The notes under the pieces: model-generated
Database searches by the model: none
What the model saw: only the letters and a program-made list of their open reading frames with translations
Told to the model about the DNA's origin: nothing
Shown here: piece after piece, positions 1 through 59,720 of the stretch
How the letters are laid out: every line of letters begins with the position of its first letter
Numbering within the stretch: position 1 is the first letter of the stretch
Made by a program: the position numbers and the translations under genes
Assembly (NCBI GenBank): GCA_029261715.1
Contig: JAJDAT010000015.1
Span: 1 to 64,000 of the forward strand
Length of the DNA stretch: 64,000 nucleotides
Direction: 5' to 3'
Origin: Nitrospinia bacterium
GTDB taxonomy: Bacteria; Nitrospinota; Nitrospinia; Nitrospinales; JAJDAT01

Positions 1-288
1 ACCTTACGAAATTCTTAAAGAAAAATTAAAATAGCTGCAGAGTCTGTGAACCCTGTGTGTAAACTGCGAAGCAGTTTTCCACAAGTACACAGACAAAATA
101 AAAAACTGTCAACCTATGTTTGTTTCATCACAAGGATGACATGCGATGGGGATTGCTATAAACCAATTTCACTTTTGTTAAGCAACTAACTTTCCTAACT
201 TAAAGGCAAAGTGGTGGTCGTGGTTTCCTTCGACAGGCTCAGGGCAAGCTTAAGGCTCACCATGACATTCTTTTTTGTTCAGGATGCA

Positions 289-1323
289 CTATAGGCGCTC
301 TTTAAAACCATTTCCCACTTTTTCAAAAGTTTGAGTTGTTCTCGAAGCATTCACACCTAGTTCCGGAGAAATTGTTTCTACATAAACCTCAAACATAGAC
401 GCTTTAGTTATTTTAAAAGAAACTTTATCAATTTTTTGATGAACAGCTTTATATTCATTTATGCTTTTCGCACCAATCTCCCACCCTTTTTCAACTCTTT
501 TAAATTCAAATAAACTCAATTTAGTTTCACATCCAACGCAGACTACAGTTGACTCCGAAGAAGATACGATCCCTATTATATTATTAACACTCCCATTAAA
601 AGCTAAATGGAAAAAACCATAAACTTCTTTTATCGCTTTTGCATTTTTTTTATTTAAAATAGATATAACTATTTCTTCTGCCTTCTTTTCGTCCCATTTC
701 CCAACTATTTTAGTTTCATTCTTTTCTTCATCAACAAGAATTCCAACAATCAGTAAAAAAATGAACACTACAAAAAGCGTCTTTAGTGTTTTTCCTATTA
801 TATTCGCTATAAAACTCTTAGGTTTTTTACCTGGCTTCTTTTTTATTTCAGGGGCATTGAGGCTTTTCTCTTTCTTTTCGTTTGTTTTTTTTTCATGTTT
901 AACTTCGTCATTAGAAGACCAATAAGAGTCATTTATCGACAATTTATCTTTAAGGTCTTCTAATAATTTCTGGAAGTTGGAGGAACTTTCAAAATCTTCT
1001 AAATTTGTCAAATCTGCAGTTTGAATATTCCGGTATCCCATCGGAGGCTTTACATTTTCAATTTTTACTGGAATCAAAACCCCTCGCCCTTTTCCTTCTT
1101 GCGCCTCGTCGTCTACCCAATCTGATTCCAAAGAAGTCTTAGACCAAACAACGATGACACATCTGGCTGACGCTAATTCTTCTCCAATTACTTCACGATA
1201 CTTTTTCCCATTGGGAATACTAGGATCCCACCACACAGAAAATCCTTGACGTTCTAGCGCGTTTGCCAGTTTTTTCACTTTAGGACGGTCTGCGCTCGAA
1301 TAACTAAGAAAAATATCGCTCAT
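289..1323 (-). CDS. TIR domain protein with a transmembrane segment and C-terminal domain of unknown function
   Basis: N-terminus MSDIFLSYSSADRPKVKKLANALERQGFSVWWD...SLESDWVDDEAQEG matches TIR_2 pattern; hydrophobic TM stretch TLFVVFIFLLIVGILV mid-protein. Confidence 0.85.
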   Translation of the reverse strand: MSDIFLSYSSADRPKVKKLANALERQGFSVWWDPSIPNGKKYREVIGEELASARCVIVVWSKTSLESDWVDDEAQEGKGRGVLIPVKIENVKPPMGYRNIQTADLTNLEDFESSSNFQKLLEDLKDKLSINDSYWSSNDEVKHEKKTNEKKEKSLNAPEIKKKPGKKPKSFIANIIGKTLKTLFVVFIFLLIVGILVDEEKNETKIVGKWDEKKAEEIVISILNKKNAKAIKEVYGFFHLAFNGSVNNIIGIVSSSESTVVCVGCETKLSLFEFKRVEKGWEIGAKSINEYKAVHQKIDKVSFKITKASMFEVYVETISPELGVNASRTTQTFEKVGNGFKERL

Positions 1324-1592
1324 TATTAAACTTCAGTATTTTTAAATGGGTAACTTATTTTGAAATAAGTATTAATTCTAAATAAAAAAACATATTATTT
1401 CCACTTTGATTAACAATTATTTCCTATACTAAAAATAAGGAGGAGGCTTTACCTAGATCCTTCGTCACCCTCTGTTAGGGCTCCTCTAGGATGACGTCGA
1501 TTTGGAGTTTTATTTTTACGCTGGATTTTTTTTCCTGCAACCATTGAGCTTCCTTCTTTTATAAATCAACACGAAACATGATAATTGGAAAC

Positions 1593-2204
1593 TTAATCGT
1601 TCCACTTCCAATTGTCGGGATCGTTCATACCGGGTTGCCAGAGGGTTTCTTCTTCTCCCATAACCGCTCCAACCCAACGTCCAAAGACGAACAACGCATC
1701 GGACAACCTATTCACATAGGCCAACACATACGGCCCAATCTCTTCGTCGCGGCTCAATCGCACAATATCTCTTTCCGCTCTTCTGCAAACGGTGCGGCTT
1801 TGATGTAAAAACGAATTGACTATTCCGCCTCCCGGTAAAATAAAGCTTGTTAGCGGCTCTAAATCTTCGTTCATTTCATCAATCACGTTTTCGAGCCACA
1901 AAACGTTGCTCTCTTTTAATGTGAGGTCTTCTTCTTTTTTGAAGTCGGGTTTTGTTGCCAGCTCCGCGCCCACATCGAACAGTCTTTGCTGAACATTCGC
2001 TAAAATCAGATCAAATTTATCGCGCTTAACAGACTCTTCTTTTTGGGAGTTGAAATGTCTGACCAATCCGATAATGCTGTTTAACTCGTCGATGGTTCCA
2101 TAAGATTCGATCCTGGGGTGATCTTTTCCTATACGACCTCCTCTACCCAATCCCGTTTCGCCCGCATCGCCGGTTTTTGTATATACTTTATTGATATTAA
2201 ACAA
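1593..2204 (-). CDS. PduO-type cob(I)alamin adenosyltransferase
   Basis: KVYTKTGDAGETGLGRGGRIGKDHPRIESYGTIDELNS...CRRAERDIVRLSRDE...YVNRLSDALFVFGRW: PduO-type ATR signature. Confidence 0.95.
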   Translation of the reverse strand: MFNINKVYTKTGDAGETGLGRGGRIGKDHPRIESYGTIDELNSIIGLVRHFNSQKEESVKRDKFDLILANVQQRLFDVGAELATKPDFKKEEDLTLKESNVLWLENVIDEMNEDLEPLTSFILPGGGIVNSFLHQSRTVCRRAERDIVRLSRDEEIGPYVLAYVNRLSDALFVFGRWVGAVMGEEETLWQPGMNDPDNWKWND

Positions 2205-2350
2205 GTTGCGTCTCCTAAACAGTTTCCCCCTTATTCCCCGCTAGTTTGCGGGAGAATTAAACCTTGACTCATGCGTCCATTCTGTTAAGATTGTGACAAA
2301 TTTGAAGGAAGTTTCTAGATTAAATATAAGGAAATTTCCAATAAGAATCT

Positions 2351-2380
2351 CTTTAAAACAGTCCTGCGAGATTGTTAAGG
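2351..2380 (+). promoter_or_regulatory. Candidate PyrR-binding RNA loop (anti-antiterminator)
   Basis: CUUU-AA-AACAGUC-CUGCGA-GAUUGUU-AAGG folds as 4-bp lower stem, purine bulge, 7-bp upper stem and hexaloop CUGCGA (fits CNGNGA); located 105 bp upstream of the pyrR ATG. Confidence 0.8.
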
Positions 2381-2413
2381 ATCTTACCAAGAATGGAACA
2401 AGATAATTCTATC

Positions 2414-2452
2414 ACCTCCTCCTGCGCTTAAACAATGAGGGGGTATTTTTTT
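2414..2452 (+). terminator. Intrinsic terminator/attenuator in the pyrR leader
   Basis: ACCTCCTC (2414-2421) / GAGGGGGT (2437-2444) 8-bp stem with one G-U, followed by ATTTTTTT and a second T run. Confidence 0.8.
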
Positions 2453-2484
2453 GCCTTTTTTTGGTTCCTTCCTGCAATAACACT

Positions 2485-3021
2485 ATGAACCCAGTTGTTC
2501 TAAATTCACAGCAAATTTCTAGAGCTATCAGCCGAATCGCTCATGAAATTGTCGAAAAAAATTCGGGTTGCGATAATTTGGCTCTCGTAGGTATACGGAC
2601 TCGGGGGGTTCCATTTGCCAAACGCCTGCAAGCTAAAATCAAATCGATTGAAAACGTCACTCTCCAACTGGGGATACTAGATATTACCCTATATCGGGAC
2701 GACATCCAAACGGGAAGATCACATCCAGAAATTAGAAGCACTGAAATCCCCTTCCCAGTGGAAGAAACTAAAATTGTATTGTGCGACGACGTTCTATTCA
2801 CTGGCAGAACAATCCGAGCCGCTATCGACGAATTGATGGATTTTGGAAGACCCGCAGGAGTGCAACTGGCGACCTTGATTGATCGCGGTCACAGAGAACT
2901 ACCTATTCGCCCTGATTATGTCGGCAAAAATATTCCGACCAGTAAATCACAATTGATCAAAGTTAGACTTAATGAAGAGGACGGAGAAGATCAAGTTATT
3001 TTGGTCGACGCCCCACAGTAA
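2485..3021 (+). CDS. pyrR: Bifunctional pyr operon regulator/uracil phosphoribosyltransferase
   Basis: ISRAISRIAHEIVEKNSGCDNLALVGIRTRGVPFAKRL...VILCDDVLFTGRTIRAAIDEL (PRPP motif) ...LPIRPDYVGKNIPTS; ATG at 2485 preferred over the TTG at 2461. Confidence 0.96.
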   Translation: MNPVVLNSQQISRAISRIAHEIVEKNSGCDNLALVGIRTRGVPFAKRLQAKIKSIENVTLQLGILDITLYRDDIQTGRSHPEIRSTEIPFPVEETKIVLCDDVLFTGRTIRAAIDELMDFGRPAGVQLATLIDRGHRELPIRPDYVGKNIPTSKSQLIKVRLNEEDGEDQVILVDAPQ

Positions 3022-3027
3022 TACTTT

Positions 3028-3963
3028 ATGCAATATTCCCAAAAACATCTGCTAGGAATCAAGGGGTTGTCAAAAGAAGACATCCTGGCCGTATTGAACG
3101 CGGCAGATACCTTTAAGGTTTATACTCAGAGGGATATTAAGAAAGTTCCTACTCTGCGCGGCAGAACTATCATCAATATGTTTTTCGAGCCTAGCACTCG
3201 CACCCGAACCTCTTTTGAGATCGCCGGTAAACGAATGAGCGCCGACGTTATAAACATTGCTGGTTCGTCCAGTAGCGTGGTTAAAGGCGAAACGCTAGTC
3301 GACACGGTTAAGAACTTAGAGGCGATGAACTGCGATATCTTGATCATCCGCCACGGTGAAGCGGGAGCGGCAGAATTGGCCGCGCGTCATTTGAGCAACC
3401 CTGTCATAAACGCTGGCGACGGTTACCACGAGCATCCGACTCAGGCTCTTTTGGATTTAATGACTATCCGCGAACATAAACAAGAACTAGAAGGGCAAAA
3501 AGTCACAATCGTTGGCGATATTGCGCATAGTCGCGTGGCCCGTTCCAATATTTACGCGATGAAAACTTTAGGAATGGACGTTTCGGTGGTTGGACCTCCG
3601 ACTATGATCCCTGCCGACATGGAAAAAATGGGCGTTAAAGTTTTCCATAATTTAGAAAAGGGTATTAAGGATGCGGATGTTATAATGATGCTCCGCATTC
3701 AGATGGAGAGACAAAACAAAACTTTTTTCCCTACACTGCGTGAATATTCAAATTTATTCGGCCTGAACCTCCAGAAATTAAAAAAAGCAAAGAAAGACGT
3801 TCTTATCCTGCATCCGGGTCCGGTAAACAGGGGGATAGAAATTTCTACCGACGTGATCGACGGCCCTCACTCCGTAATATTGAATCAAGTAACCAATGGA
3901 GTGGCGATAAGAATGGCTCTCATGTATCTACTATTAGGATTGAGCGATGAAACTGTTAATTAA
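3028..3963 (+). CDS. pyrB: Aspartate carbamoyltransferase catalytic subunit
   Basis: FFEPSTRTRTSFEIAGKRM, HPTQALLDLMTI, HPGPVNRGIEI. Confidence 0.97.
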   Translation: MQYSQKHLLGIKGLSKEDILAVLNAADTFKVYTQRDIKKVPTLRGRTIINMFFEPSTRTRTSFEIAGKRMSADVINIAGSSSSVVKGETLVDTVKNLEAMNCDILIIRHGEAGAAELAARHLSNPVINAGDGYHEHPTQALLDLMTIREHKQELEGQKVTIVGDIAHSRVARSNIYAMKTLGMDVSVVGPPTMIPADMEKMGVKVFHNLEKGIKDADVIMMLRIQMERQNKTFFPTLREYSNLFGLNLQKLKKAKKDVLILHPGPVNRGIEISTDVIDGPHSVILNQVTNGVAIRMALMYLLLGLSDETVN

Positions 3964-5236
3964 AAACGGTCGAGTTATAGACCCGGCTTCTGGCATCAAT
4001 GAAGAACGCGACGTTCTCATCGAAAAAGGCAAAATTGCCGCTGTCGAAAAGAAAGGCTCTATTTCCGAAAGCTCTTTAGATGGAGCTAAAATAATAGACG
4101 CCAACGGCTGTGTTGTCGCTCCAGGGTTTATCGATATGCACGTCCACTTTCGCGAACCTGGTTTTGAATATAAAGAAACCATTGAATCGGGAGCTGAGTC
4201 TGCCGCCGCTGGAGGATTCACCACCGTTGCGGTGATGCCAAACACCAATCCGGTTAACGACGTTCGGTCGATCACTGAGATGATTGTTAGCATCGCGAAA
4301 GCAAAAGCTATCGTGAATATTTTACCGATTGGCGCGATCACTAAAGGACTCAAAGGAGAAACGCTCACTGAAATGGCTGACCTAAAGGAAGCGGGAGCGG
4401 TCGCTTTTTCCGACGATGGTATGCCTGTCTCTAGCAATGAAATAATGCGCCGGGCTTTGGAATACAGCCACATGCTTGATCTTCCTCTCATTCAACACAG
4501 CGAAATGAAAGACCTCACCGCAGGCGGCTGTATGAATGAGAGTATCGTTTCAACGGAACTTGGTCTTGGCGGGATGCCGCGCGAAGCGGAAGACATCATG
4601 GTTTACCGCGATATATCCTTATTGCCCCGCACGAAGGGACGGTTGCATGTCGCGCATATCAGTAGTGGCAACTCGGTTGAGTTGGTTCGTCAGGCAAAAG
4701 CCAAGGGGCTGCCCGTAACTTGCGAAGTGGCTCCTCATCATTTCATCTTAACGGATGAATGCGTTCGTGGTTACGACACCAATACTAAAATGAGTCCTCC
4801 TTTAAGAGAACAATGGGATATCGATATGATTAAAGAAGGTTTGCGCGACGACACTATCGATATTATCGCAACCGATCATGCTCCTCACGATACCGTCGAT
4901 AAGGAAGTGGAATACGCTAAAGCCTGTTTTGGAATTGTGGGTCTCGAAACCGCCCTCCCCTTAACAATGAAGTTAGTCGATGAAGGAGTTCTCACTTTAG
5001 AAAAAGCGGTCGAAAAGCTGACGATAACTCCGGCTAAATTATTCGACCTGGACAAGGGAACTTTAAAACCTGGAAGCGTAGCGGACGTAGTTATATTCGA
5101 TCCTGAAAAAGCTTATAAGATAAATGCGGCGGAGTTTAAATCTAAAAGTAAAAATACCCCTTTTGATGGCTGGGATGTGAAAGGGCAAATCGTCCATACA
5201 TTAGTGCAAGGCAAAATTGTTTATTCAAACACCTAA
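3947..5236 (+). CDS. pyrC: Dihydroorotase
   Basis: GFIDMHVHFREPGFEYKETIESG, TCEVAPHHFILTDE, ATDHAPH; overlaps the pyrB end. Confidence 0.97.
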   Translation: MKLLIKNGRVIDPASGINEERDVLIEKGKIAAVEKKGSISESSLDGAKIIDANGCVVAPGFIDMHVHFREPGFEYKETIESGAESAAAGGFTTVAVMPNTNPVNDVRSITEMIVSIAKAKAIVNILPIGAITKGLKGETLTEMADLKEAGAVAFSDDGMPVSSNEIMRRALEYSHMLDLPLIQHSEMKDLTAGGCMNESIVSTELGLGGMPREAEDIMVYRDISLLPRTKGRLHVAHISSGNSVELVRQAKAKGLPVTCEVAPHHFILTDECVRGYDTNTKMSPPLREQWDIDMIKEGLRDDTIDIIATDHAPHDTVDKEVEYAKACFGIVGLETALPLTMKLVDEGVLTLEKAVEKLTITPAKLFDLDKGTLKPGSVADVVIFDPEKAYKINAAEFKSKSKNTPFDGWDVKGQIVHTLVQGKIVYSNT

Positions 5237-5251
5237 TCAACTGATCAAACT

Positions 5252-6388
5252 ATGAAAGCTAAATTAGCTCTGGCAGACGGTAGAATTTTTGAAGGCGAGT
5301 CCTTTGGGGCTTCCGGGCAAGCGGAAGGCGAAGCTGTGTTCAACACCAGCATGATGGGATATCAGGAAGTCTTGACTGATCCCTCCTATAGAGGACAAAT
5401 GGTTGTGATGACATATCCGTTAATTGGAAATTATGGCATTAATCCTGAAGACTTCGAATCCGATAAGCCACACCTTTCTGCTTTTATCATTAAAGAGTTA
5501 AGTTCAATTCCCAGCAGTTGGCGTTCTACCGAAACTTTAGACGAGTTTCTTAAAAAACACAATATTATGGGAATTCAAGGAATAGACACAAGAGCGTTGA
5601 CTCGCCACATACGGGAAGCTGGAGCGCAACAGGCCGTGCTATCTACCGAATCTATTTCTGACGAAGAGTTAGTCCAATTGGCTAAAAAATCTCCAAGTAT
5701 CGTTGGGCAAGATTTGGTCAAGGAAGTGACCTGCTCCGAACCTTATACTTGGAACGAAGGAGAATGGGATGTTGCATCCGGTTACTCTAAAACTAGTTCT
5801 CAAAACCAATCCAAGCCTCTAAACATAATCGCTTATGACTTGGGTATAAAACGAAATATCTTGAGAAACTTTTTTCAACTAGGTTGCAAAGTCAAAGTTG
5901 TTCCGGCATCGACTTCGGCAGAAACTGTTTTAAGCGAAAATCCCGACGGCGTGTTTATTTCAAACGGTCCTGGCGATCCTGAAGGAGTTCCTTACGTCAT
6001 AGAAACGGTTCGTAATCTTATCGGTAAAGTTCCTATTTTTGGAATTTGCCTTGGGCATCAAATCATTAATTTAGCTTTGGGCGGCAAAACCTTTAAGTTG
6101 AGATTTGGTCATCATGGCGGCAACCAACCCGTTATTGACTTAAAATCAAAAAAAGTAGAAATCACTTCTCAAAACCATTGCTTCGCCGTTGCCTCGCCTC
6201 CTACTAACGAAGACGTAGAGGTAACAACTATTAATTTAAACGACCAAACTGTTGAAGGAATAAGGCATAAAAAACTACCGGTTTTTTCAGTGCAATATCA
6301 TCCTGAAGCTTCTCCTGGCCCTCATGATTCTTCTCACCTGTTTGAAGAATTCATCCAATTTCTGAAGGAAAATCATGCTCCAAGATAG
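5252..6388 (+). CDS. carA: Carbamoyl-phosphate synthase small subunit
   Basis: FNTSMMGYQEVLTDPSYRGQ, GICLGHQIINLALGGKTFKLRFGHHGGNQPV, QYHPEASPGPHD. Confidence 0.97.
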   Translation: MKAKLALADGRIFEGESFGASGQAEGEAVFNTSMMGYQEVLTDPSYRGQMVVMTYPLIGNYGINPEDFESDKPHLSAFIIKELSSIPSSWRSTETLDEFLKKHNIMGIQGIDTRALTRHIREAGAQQAVLSTESISDEELVQLAKKSPSIVGQDLVKEVTCSEPYTWNEGEWDVASGYSKTSSQNQSKPLNIIAYDLGIKRNILRNFFQLGCKVKVVPASTSAETVLSENPDGVFISNGPGDPEGVPYVIETVRNLIGKVPIFGICLGHQIINLALGGKTFKLRFGHHGGNQPVIDLKSKKVEITSQNHCFAVASPPTNEDVEVTTINLNDQTVEGIRHKKLPVFSVQYHPEASPGPHDSSHLFEEFIQFLKENHAPR

Positions 6389-7247
6389 CGTCGAAAAAGT
6401 AATCGAATTCGCCGCCGGACCTTATTGCGCGGATGAAATAAAAGACGCCAAGGCGGAGTATAGCGAAATTCTAGGAAACATTTTTTCCGACGACGAATCT
6501 TTCGATAGCCGAATGGCCTCTTTTTTAGAATGGTACGTCTTTGATAGAAACCTTAAGGCAACTGGCACTCCTCCTATTTCGGTCTATATAAAACACCACC
6601 TTCAAGATTGGCCAGAAGAAACGCAAAGCTATTTTCGCTCTTTTGAGAAAAATGTTCACGGATTGTTTCTCGTAAAAAAACCAATGAAGGGGAGCGTTTT
6701 AGCCATCAATTTGTTCGACAAAATTAAATACAAAGTCGAAGATCCTCAGAGCGAGATGATTTTTAGAAAAAACGATATCTTCGAAGGTCGCGCAATTCCT
6801 TTTTCAGATGGAAATCGTTTTACAGGAACCTATTGTTTTCATCCCCAGCAAACCTCAAAGTTCATTAAAAACCAGATTGAAAAAATTGTAAAAGAACGAG
6901 AGGCTTGGGAAACTCAAATAAAAAGATTGAACTCAGACTTGAACAAGTTGGACTCAAAAATCACAAAATTTACGGTTAAATCAGAACGTCTTTCAAATAA
7001 AATCGAATCGGCAAAATCAGAAGCCAAAAAATCGGTTCTTGAAAATGAAAGAAAAGAAGTTGAATCGGAAAAAATAGATTTAGAAGTTCTTAGACCTCCG
7101 CTTCGCGACGAATTGGATAATATCGAAACTAAAAAACTCGGAATTGAAATTCCACTATTACAAAAGAAACTCATGCATCAATTGTCTTTTATGAACCTGC
7201 GTTGGGAACGATCGCGTCAGATTGATCTCAAGGATATTTACAAGTAA
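6375..7247 (+). CDS. Hypothetical protein with C-terminal coiled coil, between carA and carB
   Basis: ATG inside the carA 3' end and stop 2 nt before carB; charged heptad-like region ([28 protein letters not shown]...); no family recognised. Confidence 0.85.
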
Positions 7248-7249
7248 AA

Positions 7250-10200
7250 ATGCCTAAACGAACGGATATTAAAAAAATTCTTTTGATAGGTTCAGGCCCT
7301 ATCGTCATAGGTCAAGCCTGCGAATTCGATTACTCGGGAACTCAAGCCTGCAAGTCTTTAAAGGAAGAGGGATATGAGGTCATCCTCATTAATAGTAATC
7401 CCGCGACGATCATGACCGACCCTGAGTTTGCCGATCGTACCTACATTGAACCCGTCGATCCGGCCACTGTCGAAAAAATTATTGCGAAAGAAAGACCAGA
7501 CGCTATTTTGCCTACCATAGGCGGGCAAACAGGTTTAAACACTACATTAGCGTTAGCGGAAAATGGCGTCCTCGAAAAATATGGCGTGGAGTTAATCGGC
7601 GCGAAAGTCGACTCGATTAAAAAATCAGAAGACCGCAACCTTTTTAAACAGGCTATGATTTCTATCGGTCAAAAGGTGCTTCCAAGCGGCCACGCACATA
7701 GTCTGGAAGAGGCATTAGAGATTGTTAAAGAAACGGGATTCCCAGCTATTATTAGACCATCGTTTACTTTGGGTGGAACGGGAGCGAGCATCGCTCACAG
7801 TCCTGATGAGTATGAAGAACTCATTTTAAACGCTCTTAAATCCAGCCCAATTAATGAAGTGTTGGTTGAAAAATCTGTTGTCGGCTGGAAAGAGTTTGAA
7901 TTAGAAGTGATGCGTGATCTTCGCGACAACGTAGTCATCATTTGTTCCATAGAAAACTTAGATCCCATGGGTGTCCATACCGGCGATAGCATTACCGTCG
8001 CGCCCGCGCAAACTCTGACAGATAAAGAATATCAAATCATGCGAAACGCCGCGATCGACATCATTAGAGAAATCGGAGTCGATACGGGTGGGTCCAATAT
8101 TCAGTTCGCCACGGATCCAGAAACTGGCGATATGATTGTCATTGAAATGAACCCACGCGTTTCTAGAAGCTCCGCGCTTGCTTCTAAAGCTACTGGTTTC
8201 CCCATCGCCAAAATTGCGGCAAAGCTGGCCGTCGGTTTAACTTTAGACGAAATCCCTAATGATATTACGCGCGAAACCCCTGCTTCTTTTGAGCCCACAT
8301 TAGATTACTGTATTGTTAAAGTTCCGCGATTCACATTTGAAAAGTTTTTCAAAACCGATCAAACGTTAACGACACAAATGAAATCGGTTGGCGAAGTTAT
8401 GTCAATCGGCAGAACGTTTAAAGAAGCTCTCCAAAAATCATTGCGGTCGTTGGAAATTGGCTCCTATGGCTTGGAAGAAAATCCCGCCTGGAAGCTTTCT
8501 GGCCTTGAAAAAGAAGACCAACAAACTCAGCTTAAAAAACTTTTAGCTTCTCCACATTGGGAAAGGCTTTGGCATTTAGCCACTTCTATAAGAAAAGGAA
8601 TTTCCCTTGAGGAATTAAACCGCATTACTTTTGTCGATCCCTGGTTTTTGCATCATCTTAAAGAAATCATTGATCAGGAAGAGGAAATTAAAAATTCCGG
8701 TTTAAACAAAGACACTTTGAGAAAAGCCAAGAAGAATGGTTTCTCGGATATATATTTATCAAAACTTCTTGGCCTAAGCGAAAACGAGATTGTCGAAAAG
8801 AGAAAACAGGAAAATATTAGACCCGTATTTAAACGAGTCGACACCTGCGCCGCCGAGTTTGAAGCTCACACTCCTTATCTATATTCTACATATGAAGACG
8901 AGTGCGAAGCCAATCCGACAGACAGACAAAAAATAATGATTCTAGGCGGTGGTCCCAATCGCATTGGACAAGGCATTGAGTTTGATTACTGTTGTGTCCA
9001 TGCGGCATTTGCGCTGAAAGAAGATGGTTACGAAACCATAATGGTTAACTGCAATCCTGAAACCGTGAGCACTGATTACGATACTTCCGACAGGCTCTAT
9101 TTTGAACCCGTCACATTTGAAGATGTCGTTCACATCGTTGAAAAAGAAAAACCCAAAGGCGTGATCGTCCAATTTGGAGGACAAACCCCATTAAAGCTGG
9201 CGTTAGCTTTAAAGAAAGCGGGAGTCCCTATATTAGGCACCAGCCCAGAAGATATTGACCGAGCGGAAGACAGAAAACTTTTTAAAGAAGTTTTAAATAA
9301 GCTTTCTTTAACCCAACCTGAAAACGACACCGCAACTTCTTTAGAAGAAGCGGTCAAGATTGCCGAAAACCTGGGCTATCCTGTTGTTGTTCGCCCTTCT
9401 TACGTCCTCGGCGGAAGAGCGATGGAGATTGTTTACAACACCGAGAGGCTTAACTTTTACATGAATCATGCTGTGGACGCTTCGCCCGAACATCCTATCT
9501 TGATCGATAAGTTTTTGGATAACGCTACGGAAGTGGATGTTGACGCTATTTGCGATGGCAATGAAGTTGTTATAGGCGGAGTCATGCAACATATAGAAAA
9601 GGCCGGAATCCATTCAGGAGATAGCGCATGTTCCCTACCGCCTTTTTCTCTTTCCAAGCCTTTAATTGAAGAAATAAAAGTTCAAACAGAAGCTCTCGCT
9701 AAAGAATTGAACGTGATTGGTTTACTCAATATTCAATTCGCAATTAAGGATGAAGAGATTTTTATTTTAGAAGTGAATCCAAGAGCCTCGCGAACGGTCC
9801 CATTTGTAAGTAAAGCGATTGGTAGACCATTAGCTAAACTAGCCGCTCAAGTAATGGCTGGGAAAAGCCTTAAAGAATTAGGTTTCACAAAAGAAATAGT
9901 TCCAGACTATATATCCATCAAAGAATCGGTCTTCCCATTCATCAAATTTTCAAACGTGGACGTTTTGCTTGGACCGGAAATGAAATCCACAGGCGAGGTT
10001 ATGGGGATAGATAATTCTTTTGGACGAGCGTTTGCTAAAGCCCAAATTGCGACTGGCCTCAACCTTCCGGAAAAAGGAACGGCCTTTATTAGCGTTAAAG
10101 ACGACGACAAACCCGCCGCTCTTGCTATTGCCAAACAATTGCGCGAAATGAGTTTCAACTTAGTGGCTACGAGTGGAACTGCGGATTACCTTTCCAAAGC

Positions 10201-17813: not shown

Positions 17814-19280
17814 ATGAGCGACCAAATTGTAGAAAACCCAACATATATGGAACACATAAGGCATTTTTTTGAAGATATTGATCTAGATCATATGAGTCAA
17901 AAAGGTATAGACTTATCGACCTATGAAAGTCTCAAGGCAAACTCGACCGATGTTTTTTTTCAGACGCTTCCTCCAAATGCCAATATGCCGCCATCAGATG
18001 AACGTAAATGGAGTAAAAAACGATCTGATACTTTTAAGAATTGGATTCGAAATGGACATCCATTTGGCAGCCCAAAACTTCAAAGTTTAAAACCATCACA
18101 GGCCGGACGCATTCGTAAAGATGCCAGAAATCTATTAGAAGGTGAAATCGACAAGCTAACGCTTGCTTTTAGCGAACTGATGAAAAGAGATACAGATGAT
18201 CCAGACAGTTATTTTGCTCTTGCAGGCATGCATTGGTATCCCCTTCCATTCAAGTGTAAACACCACGAAGATCGTTATAATCCATGGCATCGGGCTTATC
18301 TTGAAAAGTTTGAAAACGCTCTTCGATCTGTTGACGGTTGCGAAGACGTAACGCTTCCCTATTGGGATATCACGTCACCGCCTCCGGAATTCCTGTTTAA
18401 GGAGCCTTTCGACTCTTATACGCTTCCTATAGATATACATGCTAATTATAAAGCCGGATACAAAACGCAACGGTTTTCCGCCAATGATATAGAAACAAAT
18501 GTTCAGAGTGCAAGAATTTCAGATACAATTACACACGCCATGAATCAGCCTGTTTGGGGGGATTTCGTTTCATACACAAATCAAGGAATCGAAAGCGCTC
18601 ATGATGCTGGCCACGGCGCTTGTGGCCCTACCTTATCAAATACAGACGCAGCTTCATTTGACCCAATATTCTGGTTTTTTCATTCTAACTGGGATCGCCT
18701 TTGGTGGGAGTGGCAACAAATTATGAGCGCTACTACCTTGTGGACTTTCAGGAGTACGATTAAAGGCAATACAGAGTTTCTGGAACCGCCCTTTAACGAC
18801 CTTGATCCATTCTCACGTACCGCTGATAAAACAATCGACTTAAATAGCATGGGTATTGGCTATGAGTTACAGTCAGATTTGGAGGAAGCGGATCCTCAAG
18901 CATTAGCGCGTAGTGGATTTGGTAGCTTGATAGCTGGACAAGGCATTCTAGTCAATCAGATGACTCAAGCGTCAGTCAGGCTCAAGGGTATTGATCGACT
19001 AAAAATCCCAGGCAGCTTTAAAGCAATTTTGAAATCTAATGGAGAACTTGTTGGGCAACGTACTTTTTTTCAGTCGACTGAACCTAGGGACTGCGAAAGC
19101 TGCCAAATGAAAGCAAAAGTAAACCTCGATTTTCCTGTTGATATTAACGCAATTGCGGGAAAGGAACTAACAGTCGAAATAAAAGTTTTGACCCCTAACC
19201 CAGATGTTGGCCCACGCATGCCGCTACACGCAATTGGAAACCCAACTCTGAATGTTAGGATGTTACTCCAAGAAAAATAA
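17814..19280 (+). CDS. Tyrosinase/polyphenol oxidase family protein
   Basis: Copper-ligand regions GMHWYP/KHHEDRYNPWHRAYLEKFE and FDPIFWFFHSNWDRLWWEWQ; LPYWD; C-terminal beta-type domain. Confidence 0.93.
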   Translation: MSDQIVENPTYMEHIRHFFEDIDLDHMSQKGIDLSTYESLKANSTDVFFQTLPPNANMPPSDERKWSKKRSDTFKNWIRNGHPFGSPKLQSLKPSQAGRIRKDARNLLEGEIDKLTLAFSELMKRDTDDPDSYFALAGMHWYPLPFKCKHHEDRYNPWHRAYLEKFENALRSVDGCEDVTLPYWDITSPPPEFLFKEPFDSYTLPIDIHANYKAGYKTQRFSANDIETNVQSARISDTITHAMNQPVWGDFVSYTNQGIESAHDAGHGACGPTLSNTDAASFDPIFWFFHSNWDRLWWEWQQIMSATTLWTFRSTIKGNTEFLEPPFNDLDPFSRTADKTIDLNSMGIGYELQSDLEEADPQALARSGFGSLIAGQGILVNQMTQASVRLKGIDRLKIPGSFKAILKSNGELVGQRTFFQSTEPRDCESCQMKAKVNLDFPVDINAIAGKELTVEIKVLTPNPDVGPRMPLHAIGNPTLNVRMLLQEK

Positions 19281-50191: not shown

Positions 50192-50791
50192 ATGACTATA
50201 CTTAAATTAATTGTATTTATTTCCGGAGCAGTTTTAATGGCGCTAGAGATAGTGGGAAGTCGCTTGCTTTCGCCATTTTTTGGAAATTCAGTCTTTGTTT
50301 GGTCGAGCTTAATATCGGTGTTTTTAATATCATTAAGCGTGGGATATCATTTAGGAGGGAAGTTAGCGGACAAAATGCCCACCCCAAAAATTCTTAGCGT
50401 AATTATTTTTGGGTCGGGAGTCTTAATCTTTATTATTCCTTTTATCCAAGAACCTGTTAATAACGCTATTTTTGATTTAGATCTTGGAATGAAAATTAGT
50501 CCTCTAATCGCTTCATGCTTACTCTTCCTATTGCCAAGTATTTTAATGGGTGCGGTCTCTCCATTTGCCGTTAAGATGAGCGCAACTTCTATTGAAACTT
50601 TAGGCAATGTATCCGGCAATATTTCCGCTATTTCTACAATAGGAAATATCTTTGGAACTTTGTTCACATCGTTTTACTTGATCCCAACAATAGGAACCAA
50701 ATTAATAATTAATTTGCTTGGTTTAACACTTTTGTTGTCTAGCGGACTAATATTTATTTATTGCCGTTTTGTATCAAAAAATACGCAATAG
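50192..50791 (+). CDS. Membrane half of a fused-MFS/spermidine synthase-type protein
   Basis: SGAVLMALEIVGSRLLSPFFGNSVFVWSSLISVFLISLSVGYHLGGKLADK; SPFAVKM; stops before any synthase domain. Confidence 0.85.
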   Translation: MTILKLIVFISGAVLMALEIVGSRLLSPFFGNSVFVWSSLISVFLISLSVGYHLGGKLADKMPTPKILSVIIFGSGVLIFIIPFIQEPVNNAIFDLDLGMKISPLIASCLLFLLPSILMGAVSPFAVKMSATSIETLGNVSGNISAISTIGNIFGTLFTSFYLIPTIGTKLIINLLGLTLLLSSGLIFIYCRFVSKNTQ

Positions 50792-51035: not shown

Positions 51036-52013
51036 TTGAAAAAATATTTCCTAAAACTCCCAATTTATATTTCGGTTAGTATTTTTCTGCTCATTATTGG
51101 ACTTCATAATGCCTTTGCAATTCCGCCTTACTCAAGCGACATAAGGTTCAAACCTGTTCTTGAAAAAGAATCTATTTATAACAACATCGTCGTCTATTAT
51201 TCAGATAAAGATAAATTGGTTATGGCGTTTAAAAGTAAAGGGACGACATATAGCGAAACCGAAATCGATCTATCCGATCCAATAAACCTTACCATTGAAT
51301 ACACTCGGCTTTTTATGTCGACATTATTCTTTGTTCCAGAACCTAAAAACATATTGATAGTTGGATTAGGAGCTGGAGCTATGTCCAATTTCCTCCAGAG
51401 TTATTATCCTAATACAAATATAGACATGATCGAAATTGACGAAGAGGTTGTCAAAATTTCTAGAGAATATTTTGGAATGAGAGAATCTAAATTAACTAAA
51501 GTTCACGTAAAAGACGGTAGAGTTTTTGTTAAAAGGGCCAAGAAAAAATACGACATTATTTTCTTAGACGCGTTTAGAGGAAGTTTTGTTCCATTTCATC
51601 TAAAAACCAAAGAGTTTTACAAAGAAATAAAAAACAAACTAACTCCAAATGGCGTGGTCGCTTCTAATCTATTTGGCGGGTCAGCGCTCTACCCATATGA
51701 TCTAAGAACTTTTAGCGAAGTATACAAAAAACTATACTCATTCAAAGGTCAAGGTAATGTCATCTTGATTGCGGGAAACGATGAGGCTATCAAACTTGAA
51801 GATGCTGGTATGATGGAAGCGGCGAAAAAACTTATGGCCGAAAAAAAATTCAATTTTGACTTTAAATATATCGCGGAAAGTTATTTTCCTGTTGGGTCCA
51901 TCGACAAAAACTTAAGAGCTTTTACCGACGACTTCGCTCCAGTTAACTTCATCAACAGCGTGCAAGACCACAATACGGAATGCTTTGCCTGCCTGTACGA
52001 CACGCGAAAATAA
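51036..52013 (+). CDS. Spermidine synthase-like methyltransferase-fold protein
   Basis: ILIVGLGAGAMSNFLQSYYPNTNIDMIEIDEEVVKISREYFG, DGRVFVKRAKKKYDIIFLDAF; N-terminal TM. Confidence 0.9.
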   Translation: MKKYFLKLPIYISVSIFLLIIGLHNAFAIPPYSSDIRFKPVLEKESIYNNIVVYYSDKDKLVMAFKSKGTTYSETEIDLSDPINLTIEYTRLFMSTLFFVPEPKNILIVGLGAGAMSNFLQSYYPNTNIDMIEIDEEVVKISREYFGMRESKLTKVHVKDGRVFVKRAKKKYDIIFLDAFRGSFVPFHLKTKEFYKEIKNKLTPNGVVASNLFGGSALYPYDLRTFSEVYKKLYSFKGQGNVILIAGNDEAIKLEDAGMMEAAKKLMAEKKFNFDFKYIAESYFPVGSIDKNLRAFTDDFAPVNFINSVQDHNTECFACLYDTRK

Positions 52014-52809: not shown

Positions 52810-55527
52810 TTATTCTTCATCCTCATCGTCTTCATCGTCACCACCTTCTTCATCATCGCCGTCTTCCTCATCTCCCTCTTCTTCGCCACCTTCTTCACCA
52901 AATGCTAAATCAAAGTTAATCTCGGCAGTGTTATAGGAAACAATATAGTCTGTTAGACGGTCGACTTGGCGATCGACATCTCCATCCTCAACTTGCTCTA
53001 GGTCGCCAAACTTAGAACTAATGACGTATTTATCGCCTTGTTTAGGCCAATGAGAAGGCATCTTTGTTTCTGGGATCAAATCACGCGTATTTTTAAGCCA
53101 TTTAGGAATCCACTCATGTCTCAATCTAGAACTGGCAATGGAGAAATCAATTCCTTTTTCGCCATCATCATGACAATTACCACAATCCATGTAATTGGCC
53201 ATTTTAACGCCGGTATTTATAGACTCTTGCGGCTTCGCAACATTTAGACCAGATTCATATTTAAGATCTTTATCAGAAGGAACGAGAGCCTCAAAGTAGG
53301 CAGTTAAAGCCATCGCCTCTTCTTCTGAAAAGTTAAAGGTAGGCATTTTAACCTTCAACCAAGTTCTAACTGGAGTCGGATGTTTTAAGAAAGAGAAAAT
53401 CCAAGAAGATTTAATTCTTTCGCCAACATGATAATCGCCTTTTTCTAATGGAGGCGGATACATATTTTTGGCTTTAATATACTTTTGTATGATACCACCC
53501 GCTCCTTCAATAACATGACATCCCTTACAATTATATCTATCGACAATTCTTCTACCAGTTTCTAAAGCTTTTGCTTTAGGGCTCAAATGGTGCTTATAGT
53601 TTGCTGGAATGTTCAATCCACTCCATCCCTTAAGAAGCACTAATAAAGAGTGAATCTCTTTGTCACTCAAACCAAAATTAGGCATTTTATCCAAAACGCG
53701 TTCCGTACGGAATGAGTCTGGTTTTTTTAGTTTAGTTCCCGCCCAAGACTTCCAGGTATGAGGTATATGAGTATCCCCAAACTCTAACTCCCAGGTTTGC
53801 TTACCACCAAAAGAGGAAAGCTCTGGAGCAATTTTTCCTTCTTTCTCCATGCCTTTAATTTCATGACAGGCAAAACAGCCTCTTCTTCTAACAACAGTTT
53901 CACCATGAGCAATGAACTCTTTAGATCGAATTCGATCTTCAATACCCCTAATGTGCTTAGGCTTGCCAAATTGCATTAAATAAGCGGCAATATCGGAAGC
54001 GCTCTCTATACCAACTCGCAAATTAGGCATTTTGCTTTTGGAGTTATAATGAGCTGGGTTTTCAATCCAACTGACCAACCAATCTGAGTTTACTTTATTA
54101 GCTATATTGGATAAATCTGGGGCAAATTCTTCTCCCTTACCATTAACAGAATGACACGCCTGACAACCAACTGACTCAAAAAGCTTTTTGCCATTCTCAG
54201 CATCGCCACCTTTAAACTTATGAGCGACTTTATAACCTTTTTCAGAAGAAGCCATTAAATAAGCCGTAACAGCTAAAGCGTCTTTGTTGTCAAAACCAAA
54301 ATTTGGCATTCTGGTTTTAGGAAGATACCCTTTAGGATTTTTAACCCACTTATACAACCAGGTAGCGTTTACTTTTGAGGCTAATCTCAACAACCCTGGT
54401 CCAACCTTCTGAGCGTCTTGAAACCCATCAGCGAGATGACAGCCGTGACAACCTAACTCTAAAAACAACTCTCTACCATGAGAAAGCTCTTCAGCTCCGT
54501 CTAGATGAATGACCTCTGAATGACAGTTCATACACATAGATTCCATAAATTGCTCATGGACGATTGGCTCATTAATTCCCGCAGATTGATCCATTTCATG
54601 GTGAGAACCATGAGCGTCTTCCGCTGGGGCTGTAGCCGCGCCCTGCCCTTTATGACACCAAGTACATCCCGTCTTTCCAGGAGGATGTTTACCAATTATA
54701 ATTTTTTGTTTTGGATGAGTCTTCAAAGGTTCATGATGATTTTCATAGCCTGGCTTGTCATAAGCGATATGACAAGTCATACACCGATCAACCTTATAGG
54801 TAATCTCTTTAAATTTATTGAGCCTGGCTCCAGGTATAACGGCCTGCTTGATTTCGGCCGGTTTCCAAAAAAAAGGAAAAGGCTTATAGAAATCCATAGC
54901 GCGAACTAAACCGTCTCTTTTGGTAGTGAGCGTTTGAAGTTCTTTCTCTAAGCTCATAGACTTAGCTTTTTGCTCTAAAACTCTTCCTTCAAGCTCATCA
55001 TATTTTGCCTGCAACTTTTTGATTATTGGATCAAAAGCGTCGATTTCCTTCTGAGTATTTATCCATGTAGCTTTTTGAACGGCAAAATTTTCACCTTCAT
55101 GCTGAGCCTTTTTAAAATAGTAATAGGCTTCGTCTAAACGACTACCGGCAAACTTCTTTTCCTCTATCGTTTCGTCTAAACGAATTTTTGCCTCAAGTGT
55201 TTCATCGGCTAGCTGACTAAAACTAGAAGAACTATCTAGCTTATCGCCTTCCTCTTCTAAACCTTTTTGAATTTCCTGCTCTTTAGCGGAAATTTCATCG
55301 TTTACCTTCTTCCACTCTTCTTTCGCCTTAGCAAATTCTTCTTTATAATACTGCTCTTGATATTGCTTGTAGCCACGACGCGCATATTCATCATCCCAAA
55401 ATGACCATAGGGTGACAACTAGCAAAGCGCCAGACATTAAAAAGAAAAGGAAACTATAGGAAACTTCTTCTACCGGGATGTATTCCCCGGTATCTTCTTC
55501 TGGTGTTGTTTTTTCTGGAGTATCCAA
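52810..55527 (-). CDS. Octaheme c-type cytochrome of a bc-type complex, membrane anchored, acidic C-tail
   Basis: Eight CxxCH: CMTCH, CTWCH, CMNCH, CHGCH, CQACH, CFACH, CKGCH, CGNCH; N-terminal TM, coiled coil, polyacidic C-terminus. Confidence 0.95.
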   Translation of the reverse strand: MDTPEKTTPEEDTGEYIPVEEVSYSFLFFLMSGALLVVTLWSFWDDEYARRGYKQYQEQYYKEEFAKAKEEWKKVNDEISAKEQEIQKGLEEEGDKLDSSSSFSQLADETLEAKIRLDETIEEKKFAGSRLDEAYYYFKKAQHEGENFAVQKATWINTQKEIDAFDPIIKKLQAKYDELEGRVLEQKAKSMSLEKELQTLTTKRDGLVRAMDFYKPFPFFWKPAEIKQAVIPGARLNKFKEITYKVDRCMTCHIAYDKPGYENHHEPLKTHPKQKIIIGKHPPGKTGCTWCHKGQGAATAPAEDAHGSHHEMDQSAGINEPIVHEQFMESMCMNCHSEVIHLDGAEELSHGRELFLELGCHGCHLADGFQDAQKVGPGLLRLASKVNATWLYKWVKNPKGYLPKTRMPNFGFDNKDALAVTAYLMASSEKGYKVAHKFKGGDAENGKKLFESVGCQACHSVNGKGEEFAPDLSNIANKVNSDWLVSWIENPAHYNSKSKMPNLRVGIESASDIAAYLMQFGKPKHIRGIEDRIRSKEFIAHGETVVRRRGCFACHEIKGMEKEGKIAPELSSFGGKQTWELEFGDTHIPHTWKSWAGTKLKKPDSFRTERVLDKMPNFGLSDKEIHSLLVLLKGWSGLNIPANYKHHLSPKAKALETGRRIVDRYNCKGCHVIEGAGGIIQKYIKAKNMYPPPLEKGDYHVGERIKSSWIFSFLKHPTPVRTWLKVKMPTFNFSEEEAMALTAYFEALVPSDKDLKYESGLNVAKPQESINTGVKMANYMDCGNCHDDGEKGIDFSIASSRLRHEWIPKWLKNTRDLIPETKMPSHWPKQGDKYVISSKFGDLEQVEDGDVDRQVDRLTDYIVSYNTAEINFDLAFGEEGGEEEGDEEDGDDEEGGDDEDDEDEE

Positions 55528-55545: not shown

Positions 55546-56301
55546 CTAAACGTTAAACCAAGGGGTTACCCATATATACTTTATGTTAAAACCCAAACGA
55601 AGGACAATTTTAACCACGATACCGATCATGATTAAATACAAATTTACTTTAATCAACATTCTCACAATACCGACGCTCTTAATCGCTTTTCTTTCTAAAA
55701 ACATATAAGCGGCAGTTCCAACGGCAAAATAGCCTAAAACGACTACACCTCCAAATAGGCAGGCCATCCAATAATCACGGACGCCGAATGCGTATGGTAA
55801 ATCAACGCTGGTAAGAGCAACAACTTTATGAGGATCCCAATACTGCCAAGGCATGAACAGGTTCCAACCTGGACCTCGAAGGAAAACACCCATAATAATC
55901 AAGGCAATCCATAAAACTAAAAAACCAAAGGAATAAACCCAAATAGCGGTCTTTCTTTCAGTGTACGTATAATATCCATTCCCTTTAGGATTTACGTCTA
56001 AATATGGAATCAACATCAATCCAACAATGATCAATACAGGAGCGACAACTCCAGCAAACCAAGGATCAAAGTAAACTAAAATATCCTGTAGCCCCAAAAA
56101 GTACCAAGGAGCCTTTGAAGGATTTGGAGTTTTAGTAGGATTAGCCGCTTCTTCAAGAGGAGCGTCAATAACAATCGACCAAGCTGTTAAACCAACGACC
56201 ACTAGAATGGAACATAAAAATTCCAAACGAACAAGATAGGGCCAAACGTGGACCTTATCGTGAGTGATCTCAGCTCCTTTTTTCTTTATTTCCTCTGCCA
56301 T
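55546..56301 (-). CDS. Cytochrome b C-terminal half/subunit IV of bc-type complex
   Basis: HVWPYLVRLEFLCSILVVVGL, PSKAPWYFLGLQDILVYFDPWFAGVVAPVLIIVGLMLIPYLD. Confidence 0.92.
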   Translation of the reverse strand: MAEEIKKKGAEITHDKVHVWPYLVRLEFLCSILVVVGLTAWSIVIDAPLEEAANPTKTPNPSKAPWYFLGLQDILVYFDPWFAGVVAPVLIIVGLMLIPYLDVNPKGNGYYTYTERKTAIWVYSFGFLVLWIALIIMGVFLRGPGWNLFMPWQYWDPHKVVALTSVDLPYAFGVRDYWMACLFGGVVVLGYFAVGTAAYMFLERKAIKSVGIVRMLIKVNLYLIMIGIVVKIVLRLGFNIKYIWVTPWFNV

Positions 56302-56339: not shown

Positions 56340-57170
56340 TTAAAGCGGACCGGAAATTCCACCATCTTTTCGTATACGCCAGAAGTGGACTATCATCAAC
56401 GCTCCGGCAACCAAAGGAATAAAGATACAGTGTAAAACGTAAAAGCGTAGTAACGCTGGAGGTCCAACAATACTTCCTCCAATCAGCACGGATCTGGCGT
56501 CATAACGTTGCGAAACCCCTACAAACTCAGCAAAAGGCCCTTCATGCCCTAAAAACGGAGTCGCCCTAGCCATATTTGTTCCAACGGTAACAGCCCACAT
56601 AGCTAATTGATCCCATGGCAACAAATAACCTGTAAAGCTCAGCAGCAAGGTAAACGTTACTAAGAATACCCCAATAACCCAATTGAATTCCCGTGGAGGC
56701 TTATAAGAGCCGCTCAGGAAAACTCGGAACATGTGTAGCCAAACTGTAATAACCATAGAATGCGCCGCCCATCGATGCATATTCCTCATCAACATACCAA
56801 ATGGAACGTCGTATTGGAGGTACTTCATATCAAAATATGCGTATTCGCCTACCGGGCGATAATAAAACATCAATATGATGCCGGTGACAACTGTGGACAG
56901 AAACAAAAGAAATGTAATACCACCCATGCACCAAGTAAACCGAATTCTTAAGGCATGGCGGGAAATTTTAACGGGATGTAAGTGCAACCAAACGTTGCTG
57001 GCAATTTGAAGTACCCGGTTTCGAGGTGTATCTGCGTAACCATGCCTAAAAGACGACGTCCAAATTTGGGAATCGGTAACGGCCTTGGCTAATTCTTTCC
57101 AAATTTCCCCACTTTTGATCTTATCGATCAAATCGGTAATACCGGGAATGCCTTGAGTCTTGTTTGCCAA
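56340..57170 (-). CDS. Cytochrome b N-terminal half (b6-type)
   Basis: [79 protein letters not shown]. Confidence 0.96.
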
Positions 57171-57254: not shown

Positions 57255-57824
57255 TTAGACCGCTATTATTGAACCAGGCTTATTCCAGTCGTCTTTTTCC
57301 ATAAGAAACTTCTTACTCTTATCAATTTGGATAAGCCCATCAGGACCTAATGAAATTTTTAATCTCTCTAAAGCTCTAGGAGCAGGCCCTTCAAAGTTAA
57401 CGCCCTTCATTGTAAAACCACTGCCATGACAGGGACATTTAAATTTGCTTTCAGTTCTCAACCATTTGGGAGTACAACCAAGATGAGTACAAAAAGCAAA
57501 AATGGCATAAATTCCAGCTTCTTCCCGGACAATCCAGACCCTTTGGTCTTTAACCCATTTGGTGCTTACCTCTCCCAAGGTATAATCGCCAGGCCGGCCA
57601 GCTTTAAAAATAGGAGACGGCTCAAATAAAACCCTAGGGAATAATAATCGAGTAAAAAATGCCCCAGATAAACCTAGAGAAGCCATAAAACCCGCCCATC
57701 CGGCTAAAGAGAAAAAGTCACGCCGAGACCATAAAGTATCCCCGCTCTCTTCACTTTTCTTTTTTTTATCCGGTTTGGATTTAGCTGTCGGTAATTCCAT
57801 CTTTTTTTCTTCGCCTTCTGCCAT
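57255..57824 (-). CDS. Rieske iron-sulfur protein
   Basis: FCTHLGCTPKWLRTESKFKCPCHGSGF; Tat-like SRRDFFSLAGWAGF. Confidence 0.96.
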   Translation of the reverse strand: MAEGEEKKMELPTAKSKPDKKKKSEESGDTLWSRRDFFSLAGWAGFMASLGLSGAFFTRLLFPRVLFEPSPIFKAGRPGDYTLGEVSTKWVKDQRVWIVREEAGIYAIFAFCTHLGCTPKWLRTESKFKCPCHGSGFTMKGVNFEGPAPRALERLKISLGPDGLIQIDKSKKFLMEKDDWNKPGSIIAV

Positions 57825-57965: not shown

Positions 57966-59339
57966 TTAACGAGAAGTTTTCAAGTCTGTTAAGATTTCCC
58001 TAGAAGCTTTAATTATTGGATCTATCGACTCCATCGCTCCAAAAGAAAGGTTTGATAAGTCCTTTAAAGTCAAACCTTTTTTAAAAGCCAAATGTAATAT
58101 CGGAATCATTTCCGAAGCATTTGGGGAAACCACTCGAGCCCCTATCATTTTTTTTGTTTCTTTATCTATTGTCAATTTAAACAAACCTTTTTGGGCTATC
58201 TTACCATTTTCATCTGAGCCTTCAACAATCGAGCCTCCACCAAGCGCCCGAAAACCTTTGTAATGAGCATTTTCAAAATGACAACCTATCGATGCAAACT
58301 GAGGATCGGAGTAAATTATTGAAGGAATTTTATCAAGGTTTAAAGACCTTGCTTTGCCTAAACAATTATAAACAGCCACTTTTGCCTCTTCATAATTACG
58401 GTTGGCTACCCTTTGCTGTCTGGTTACGCTTCCAATCGCAAAAACTCCGGGAAAACTTGTTTCCATTTTCTCATCCGCCAAGATTTCTCCATGTTCACCC
58501 AACCTAATATCAGAGGTCTGAATATTTAAAGCTTTTGACCTTGGGGTTCTAACGCCACCAAAAAATATTTTTGAAACAGGAAACTTTATCCCTCCATCCA
58601 ATGAGACATCTATTTCTTTATCTCTTTTATATATAGAAACGATTTTTTTATTTAGGATGATCTTTAGTCTCTTTTTCCGAACTTGCTCTTCGTAAAAATC
58701 CATTATTTCAGAATCTTCATCTTCCAAAACTCTAGAGTTTTGTTCGCATAAAAATGGCTTAGATCCTAAGACTCTTATTAGCGATGCGGCCTCAGCTCCT
58801 TGAGCTCCACCATCAACAATCAAAACCTTCTCCGGGAGTTCCTGAAATTCGCCTAAACTATCCAAAGAGCATATAGTTTTTCCATCAAATGGTATCGTTT
58901 CTGGGTGTTTAGTTTCTGATCCAGTTGCCAGAATAATCTTTTCAGAAGAAATCAAATCAGTTTGATTTGAAGCTTTAATTTCTACTTTCTTAGAACCCGC
59001 AAGACTTCCTTCCCCCGTCTCGATATGAACGCCTTTTTCCTTCAGATTAATCTTCCATCTTTCTGAATAGGCCTGCTTTAAAATACTGGCTTTTTCAAAC
59101 GCTTTTTGAATATCCAATTCAGAGCCAATTTCTACCGAACCTTCTACTTTATATCGCGATGGGTAAAAACCTAAAGTAGTCAAAATCTTTCTTAGAGTAA
59201 AAACTCCGGAATCTAAAAAAGCTCCTCCAAGGTTTCCCTTTTCAATGAGACAAACTTTGGCTCCCAAATCAGCCGCTTGGCTTGCGGCAAAATATCCAGA
59301 TTCGCCTCCTCCAATGATTGTAATATCAAATTTTTTCAT
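57966..59339 (-). CDS. Lpd-like FAD/NAD(P) oxidoreductase lacking the redox-active disulfide
   Basis: ITIIGGGESGYFAASQAADLGAKVCLIEKGNLGGAFLDSGVFTLRK (canonical GGTCLNVGCIPSK); C-terminal dimerisation domain ENAHYKGF...MIGARVVSPNASEMI. Confidence 0.88.
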   Translation of the reverse strand: MKKFDITIIGGGESGYFAASQAADLGAKVCLIEKGNLGGAFLDSGVFTLRKILTTLGFYPSRYKVEGSVEIGSELDIQKAFEKASILKQAYSERWKINLKEKGVHIETGEGSLAGSKKVEIKASNQTDLISSEKIILATGSETKHPETIPFDGKTICSLDSLGEFQELPEKVLIVDGGAQGAEAASLIRVLGSKPFLCEQNSRVLEDEDSEIMDFYEEQVRKKRLKIILNKKIVSIYKRDKEIDVSLDGGIKFPVSKIFFGGVRTPRSKALNIQTSDIRLGEHGEILADEKMETSFPGVFAIGSVTRQQRVANRNYEEAKVAVYNCLGKARSLNLDKIPSIIYSDPQFASIGCHFENAHYKGFRALGGGSIVEGSDENGKIAQKGLFKLTIDKETKKMIGARVVSPNASEMIPILHLAFKKGLTLKDLSNLSFGAMESIDPIIKASREILTDLKTSR

Positions 59340-59363: not shown

Positions 59364-59720
59364 TTAGAAAACGCTAAAGCAAATAACAATCATCAGCATA
59401 ACCAAACCAATGGAAGCAATCACCGCGTGTAATGTCACGTTAATTTTTCTGCTCCATTGAACTACAACGGCAAAATAAAAGAACACAAACCAATCAAAAT
59501 AATTATTTTTCAGAAGCTTGTGATTATAAAATAAAAAAATACCGTACAAGGCTAACACAACCCAAAAACCGATTTTGTGCGCTAGATACCCCTTTTTCCT
59601 CTTATCTTTTGGAAGAATGCTAACTCCAATAAAGACATTGGCAATACAAGCCAAAATAGTCAAAAACAAAGTTATAATATTTGGATAAGAGAAAAATTCT
59701 CCTAAGGTCGACGCGTGCAT
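59364..59720 (-). CDS. Small four-TM membrane protein
   Basis: 118 aa, hydrophobic helices; no family recognised. Confidence 0.6.
   Translation of the reverse strand: MHASTLGEFFSYPNIITLFLTILACIANVFIGVSILPKDKRKKGYLAHKIGFWVVLALYGIFLFYNHKLLKNNYFDWFVFFYFAVVVQWSRKINVTLHAVIASIGLVMLMIVICFSVF

Follow-up and report, generated by a model that had tools for sequence, protein, structure and literature searches.

A b6f-like operon of Nitrospina gracilis was described to encode, besides a Rieske protein and a split cytochrome b, an 'atypical octaheme cytochrome c', and the complex was assigned to reverse electron transport (Luecker et al. 2013, PMC3578206). The same text mentions the same arrangement, with 'a similar octaheme protein', in Kuenenia and Methylomirabilis, so that on the strength of this source the combination of octaheme protein, split cytochrome b and Rieske protein has been known since 2013 (PMC3578206). 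For the Kuenenia counterpart, an AlphaFold3 model has long helices wrapping the Rieske protein and hemes unusually close (26-28 Å) to the membrane cofactors, and for residues His62/Arg266/Lys267 of Kustd1481 a role in binding an additional heme b where the two monomers meet was suggested (PMC12954380). Yeast Qcr6 has an unstructured, ~90% acidic stretch (residues 41-73), which cryo-EM shows in contact with cytochrome c (PMC11413003).

The locus analysed here belongs to a bacterium of the order Nitrospinales and lies in a stretch of 64,000 nucleotides, called the window below. Nitrospinota are major marine nitrite oxidisers. Our best reading of the octaheme gene is that it encodes the cytochrome c subunit of a Nitrospinales-type b6f-like quinol:cytochrome c oxidoreductase. 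A conserved acidic tail at the C-terminus of this subunit is a genuine and apparently undescribed feature, while the remaining architecture is mostly known.

The octaheme gene and its neighbours

An earlier note on this DNA had claimed a protein with a membrane anchor, eight CxxCH motifs and an acidic C-terminal run, which takes the place of cytochrome c1/f. The reading frame is indeed found on the minus strand (Table 1), its 905 residues contain eight CxxCH motifs (residues 249, 288, 332, 360, 455, 551, 667 and 782), and the genes for the Rieske protein and both parts of a split cytochrome b (b6 and subunit IV) lie directly upstream in the same direction, which agrees with the proposed replacement. 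Cytochrome f was not among the Pfam or NCBIfam matches of the octaheme protein. Its Pfam matches comprise Cytochrom_C in three stretches and a weak Cytochrome_C7; since no HAO family is among them, an identity as HAO/ONR-type octaheme protein was rejected. By sequence, solved structures matched single cytochrome c domains only. The TTG start codon at 55525-55527 is kept in 25 of 30 relatives, the remainder using ATG or GTG.

Table 1. Features of the octaheme locus (positions within the window)
Feature	Position	Strand	Remarks
Octaheme cytochrome c subunit	52810..55527	-	905 aa, TTG start
Polyacidic tail, predicted disordered	52813..52899	-	residues 877-905; 22 D/E of 29
Five class-I-like heme domains	52900..54507	-	CxxCH 360, 455, 551, 667, 782; Pfam Cytochrom_C; invariant columns
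Three N-terminal hemes	54508..54783	-	CxxCH 249, 288, 332; extra His invariant: 271, 281, 306, 309, 310
Helical neck, predicted out-and-back hairpin	54889..55371	-	residues 53-213; kink at 100, turn 145-148; AF2 and periodicity
Hairpin tip, conserved	55078..55176	-	residues 118-150
Sole membrane anchor	55378..55458	-	residues 24-50; hydropathy and AF2 helix 24-50
Subunit IV-like C-terminal part of cytochrome b	55546..56301	-	PF00032; five predicted TM; APWY at Qo motif
Cytochrome b6-like subunit	56340..57170	-	PF00033; Cys81 (heme cn) invariant; His63/Arg267/Lys268
Rieske protein	57255..57824	-	CTHLGC...CPCHGSG, both 2Fe-2S ligand motifs invariant
Lpd-like FAD/NAD(P) flavoprotein	57966..59339	-	syntenic throughout order; candidate complex member only
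118-aa membrane protein	59364..59720	-	three hydrophobic segments; syntenic

Hydropathy gave one hydrophobic segment in the octaheme protein (residues 22-40, N-terminal), and periplasmic heme attachment would place the N-terminus inside and the hemes outside. An MP motif is invariant in each of hemes 4-8 (Met 407, 500, 615, 728 and 823). Judged from the invariant His and Met-Pro columns, hemes 1-3 are probably bis-His and hemes 4-8 His/Met ligated. The AF2 model of the full protein was modest (mean pLDDT 65, pTM 0.40).

Octaheme orthologues occur in all 28 near-complete Nitrospinales genomes (28/28) with about 57-63% identity, while the phylum search found only one outside the order (G061/L076, 44-45% identity), and a scan of genome contigs with the octaheme protein matched Nitrospinota-type loci only. 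The order-wide gene order is 118-aa membrane protein, flavoprotein, Rieske, b6, subunit IV, octaheme protein and an Mrr-like gene, and with few exceptions it is kept wherever the contig reaches far enough. In L076, two adjoining Rieske/cytochrome b clusters were seen (1-9610); one is Nitrospina-type, the other carries a 9-heme and a diheme cytochrome. An Fe-S/FAD GltD-like oxidoreductase is encoded at 11146-12888 of L076.

The subunit IV-like protein has five hydrophobic segments versus three TM in the plant/cyanobacterial type, and reached 24 bits with TIGR01156 (cut-off 127). In the b6-like subunit the heme-cn Cys81, which we take to be the equivalent of b6 Cys35, lies in TWCMGGIT at the start of the first helix and is invariant in the alignment (A5). 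His63 and Arg267/Lys268 of this subunit show the 204-residue spacing of the Kustd1481 triad His62/Arg266/Lys267, and by this likeness in sequence an extra heme b site may exist in all Nitrospinales. In loci L031-L082 the flavoprotein gene stands beside the Rieske gene, and its product is possibly an extra subunit or a degenerate enzyme.

Some further observations concern other parts of the window and of the same genome. By eye, two adjacent ORFs at 50192-50791 and 51036-52013 (plus strand) resemble a spermidine-synthase-like protein that has apparently been divided into its membrane half and its catalytic half, and a 488-aa ORF at 17814-19280 (plus strand) resembles a tyrosinase-type copper protein. 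On another contig of the genome (C25; L085, 6874-9877), a second Rieske gene and a gene for an unsplit cytochrome b precede one for an octaheme protein of HAO/ONR appearance, an arrangement like that of the ONR cluster described as assimilatory in Nitrospira (PMC6606698).

The helical neck

Residues 1-247 of the octaheme protein were modelled by AF2 with 33 sequences. The neck was predicted to consist of helices 53-99, 101-144, 149-186 and 188-213 (pLDDT about 80-97, and about 90-97 as given for the hairpin), which run ~92 residues out, turn at 145-148 and return for ~65 residues. Hydrophobic periodicity over residues 54-214 peaks at 3.46 residues, a result that about 2/1000 shuffles reach, and is not significant for either arm taken separately. 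The periodicity over residues 54-214 makes 'coiled coil' a fair label, and from the helix-turn-helix layout we infer antiparallel packing. Thus, the coiled coil of ~150 residues proposed earlier stands as a helical and periodic element, but its length is about 160 residues and a hairpin rather than a single rod is predicted. A Foldseek search returned generic coiled-coil matches only (best E 0.026) and no specific fold match.

Conservation within the neck is highest at the turn of the predicted hairpin. The tip reaches 80% identity, and nine of its positions (K125, F126, S129, D132, E133, Y136, K139, A141 and H143) are invariant in 34 sequences, versus 53-62% identity for the neck arms. This finding does not favour the suggestion of the earlier note that the neck sets the distance of the hemes from the membrane, since a plain spacer needs no near-invariant residues at its turn, and the predicted hairpin and this tip led us to reject the spacer as first choice. 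It is likelier, as far as the model goes, that the neck clasps the Rieske protein or partner subunits and does not lift the hemes off the membrane; the AlphaFold3 model of the Kuenenia counterpart, with its helices round the Rieske protein and its hemes near the membrane cofactors, points the same way (PMC12954380).

The acidic tail and its possible partners

The C-terminus of the octaheme protein reads GEEGGEEEGDEEDGDDEEGGDDEDDEDEE, and the tail is predicted to be disordered (AF2 pLDDT 24). In 34 full-length orthologues the tail comprises 14-36 residues with a net charge of -10 to -24 (mean -17) and is composed of 44.5% E, 26% D, 18% G and 0.7% K; its letters are not conserved among relatives, whereas its acidic character is. 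It was present in every complete relative examined, including the sister lineage outside the order (L076), and never absent where the C-terminus was complete. The tail codons are mixed (GAA/GAG/GAT/GAC) and the tail is therefore maintained as protein and is not a young DNA repeat. Absence from relatives, explained by an assembly error, was named in the earlier note as what could count against the tail and does not apply: relatives have it, and an assembly error or frameshift was rejected because the tail was found in dozens of independently assembled genomes. L076 also encodes the paralogue with nine hemes, which has neither neck nor tail, so both features are special to the Nitrospina-type complex.

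Searches of the open literature for such a tail brought up no work dealing with this protein, and the accessible part of PMC3578206 makes no mention of the neck or the acidic tail of the N. gracilis octaheme protein. The question whether close homologues had already been characterised has a divided answer: homologues with the same overall layout were reported, but not characterised biochemically (PMC3578206).

Candidate partners are found among the small cytochromes c. The genome itself encodes several small monoheme cytochromes c with pI 9.6-10.1 and net charges of +12 to +19, pI values being based on crude signal-peptide cuts throughout. A basic monoheme family (CPQPR...CxxCHG) is present in 65/65 Nitrospinales genomes searched, and the members checked have pI 9.4-10.4 and net charges of +8 to +23. 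In the rest of the phylum, matches to this family are absent or weak and distant, and among the small cytochromes sampled outside the order the most basic ones have pI 8.8-9.3 and net charges of +3 to +5. In the tail-bearing G061 the family was not detected at E<=1e-12 and the most basic small cytochrome found has pI 9.3 and net +5, which speaks against a strict pairing of tail and basic family. In addition, the joint occurrence of tail and basic cytochromes is seen within a single order, where common descent acts as a confounder. In favour of the earlier idea that the tail docks basic carriers are a tail conserved in character and an order-wide family with a pI of ~10, and docking as such is plausible.

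Other roles of the tail have to be weighed. The very high density of D/E would suit binding of Ca2+, Mg2+ or other cations, by which heme potentials could be tuned or a domain ordered and docking would become secondary; however, freely shuffled letters with 18% Gly, predicted disorder and the lack of conserved spacing or any EF-hand-like pattern in the tail make this unlikely. We judge it similarly improbable that the tail serves solubility or haloadaptation, or charge balance, acting as an entropic bristle for a large periplasmic cytochrome. Many of the relatives are marine and the letters of the tail are unconstrained, as such a function would allow, but groundwater relatives (L056 and L057, both MAGs) retain the tail and the 9-heme paralogue of L076 lacks one. 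Moreover, the last 30 residues hold 12-24 acids in the orthologues versus <=11 in the non-orthologues among 589 other ORFs, which were called by a crude greedy procedure in the window and in related loci (at least 120 aa). The one other high value in this set (L073, 18 acids) belongs to a truncated orthologue, and the one multiheme protein with 2 acids is the L076 paralogue. A role as intramolecular counter-charge was rejected because the net charge of the heme core, near neutral with a mean of +3, is uncorrelated with that of the tail (r = 0.10), which weakens charge balance as well.

A constant presence with variable sequence would equally be expected of a tail that lies on the basic face of a fixed partner, such as a terminal oxidase, an NXR module or the other complex III monomer, instead of a diffusing cytochrome, and acidic tethers could serve static partners just as well. 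We identified no particular basic subunit that could be such a partner, and regard a supercomplex glue of this kind as quite doubtful. A further alternative concerns the complex as a whole: as proposed for Kuenenia, it might bifurcate electrons in an NAD(P)-linked manner, in which case the low-potential electron would go to the flavoprotein, as a cytoplasmic subunit, and the high-potential electron to the octaheme chain. The flavoprotein gene adjoins the Rieske gene across the order, an NAD(P) oxidoreductase is part of Kustd1480-1485 (PMC12954380), and the His/Arg/Lys spacing of the b6-like subunit matches that of Kustd1481. However, the flavoprotein has no Fe-S domain match, no cysteine clusters and no TM segment, and it diverges fast (31-42% identity versus about 57-91% for the core neighbours). 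Its active-site disulfide is lost, the window sequence being GGAFLDSGVF and relatives retaining at most the first Cys. We therefore consider bifurcation very unlikely.

Proposed function and comparison with known complexes

We propose that the locus encodes a b6f-like oxidoreductase with a hairpin clasp and an acidic tail that collects basic cytochromes c, and give this reading as a whole a probability of about 0.5. Electrons would be exchanged between the Rieske cluster and the eight c hemes, arranged as a chain (probably three bis-His, then five His/Met), while the two long helices would form an antiparallel hairpin clasping the Rieske protein or partner subunits. The tail would hang in the periplasm beside the last heme domain and attract the small, very basic monoheme cytochromes c electrostatically. 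Thereby it could make them locally more concentrated and faster to exchange, in the way the Qcr6 peptide acts in mitochondrial complex III. The main direction in nitrite oxidisers would be the reverse one, in which the complex would deliver high-potential electrons from cytochrome c to the quinone pool. The source organism is presumably a nitrite oxidiser itself, judging from its genes. Identical Tat-signal NxrA-like N-termini were seen at two contig ends of its genome (L150, 2-202; L151, 1489-1689), a pattern that suggests two near-identical nxr copies that may be collapsed in, or break, the assembly.

A concrete candidate docking pair for the reverse electron step to quinone is thus named, consisting of the conserved tail and basic cytochromes that match it. 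We would only tentatively go further and suggest that a bacterial complex III independently evolved an equivalent of the Qcr6 tether, fused to a multiheme cytochrome and tuned to the order-specific basic cytochromes c, and that it also acquired a helical clasp to keep the Rieske protein near the heme wire. If this is true, the tail and the acidic hinge of mitochondria are a case of convergence.

Among the described systems, the N. gracilis octaheme protein, from the same order and the same operon, is evidently the orthologue of the octaheme gene analysed here (PMC3578206). Compared by description, the complex is like Kustd1480-1485 in its b6-like cytochrome b with heme cn, five-TM subunit IV and long-helix multiheme cytochrome; unlike Kustd1480-1485, which includes an NAD(P) reductase with Fe-S clusters, only the gene for a cluster-less flavoprotein is present here (PMC12954380). 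It differs from the b6f complex proper of plants and cyanobacteria by an octaheme protein for cytochrome f and by five instead of three TM in subunit IV. Cytochrome c1 of Paracoccus denitrificans also has a fused acidic extension; this is N-terminal, larger than the tail in the window and attached to a monoheme c1. Like Qcr6, the hinge protein, the tail is a predicted disordered acidic peptide on the cytochrome c side of a Rieske/cytochrome b complex, and since its charge and not its sequence is conserved, it may plausibly work as an acidic cytochrome c tether by analogy. However, Qcr6 is a separate subunit with an N-terminal acidic segment and no homology to the octaheme protein, whereas the tail described here is part of the cytochrome polypeptide and forms its C-terminal end.
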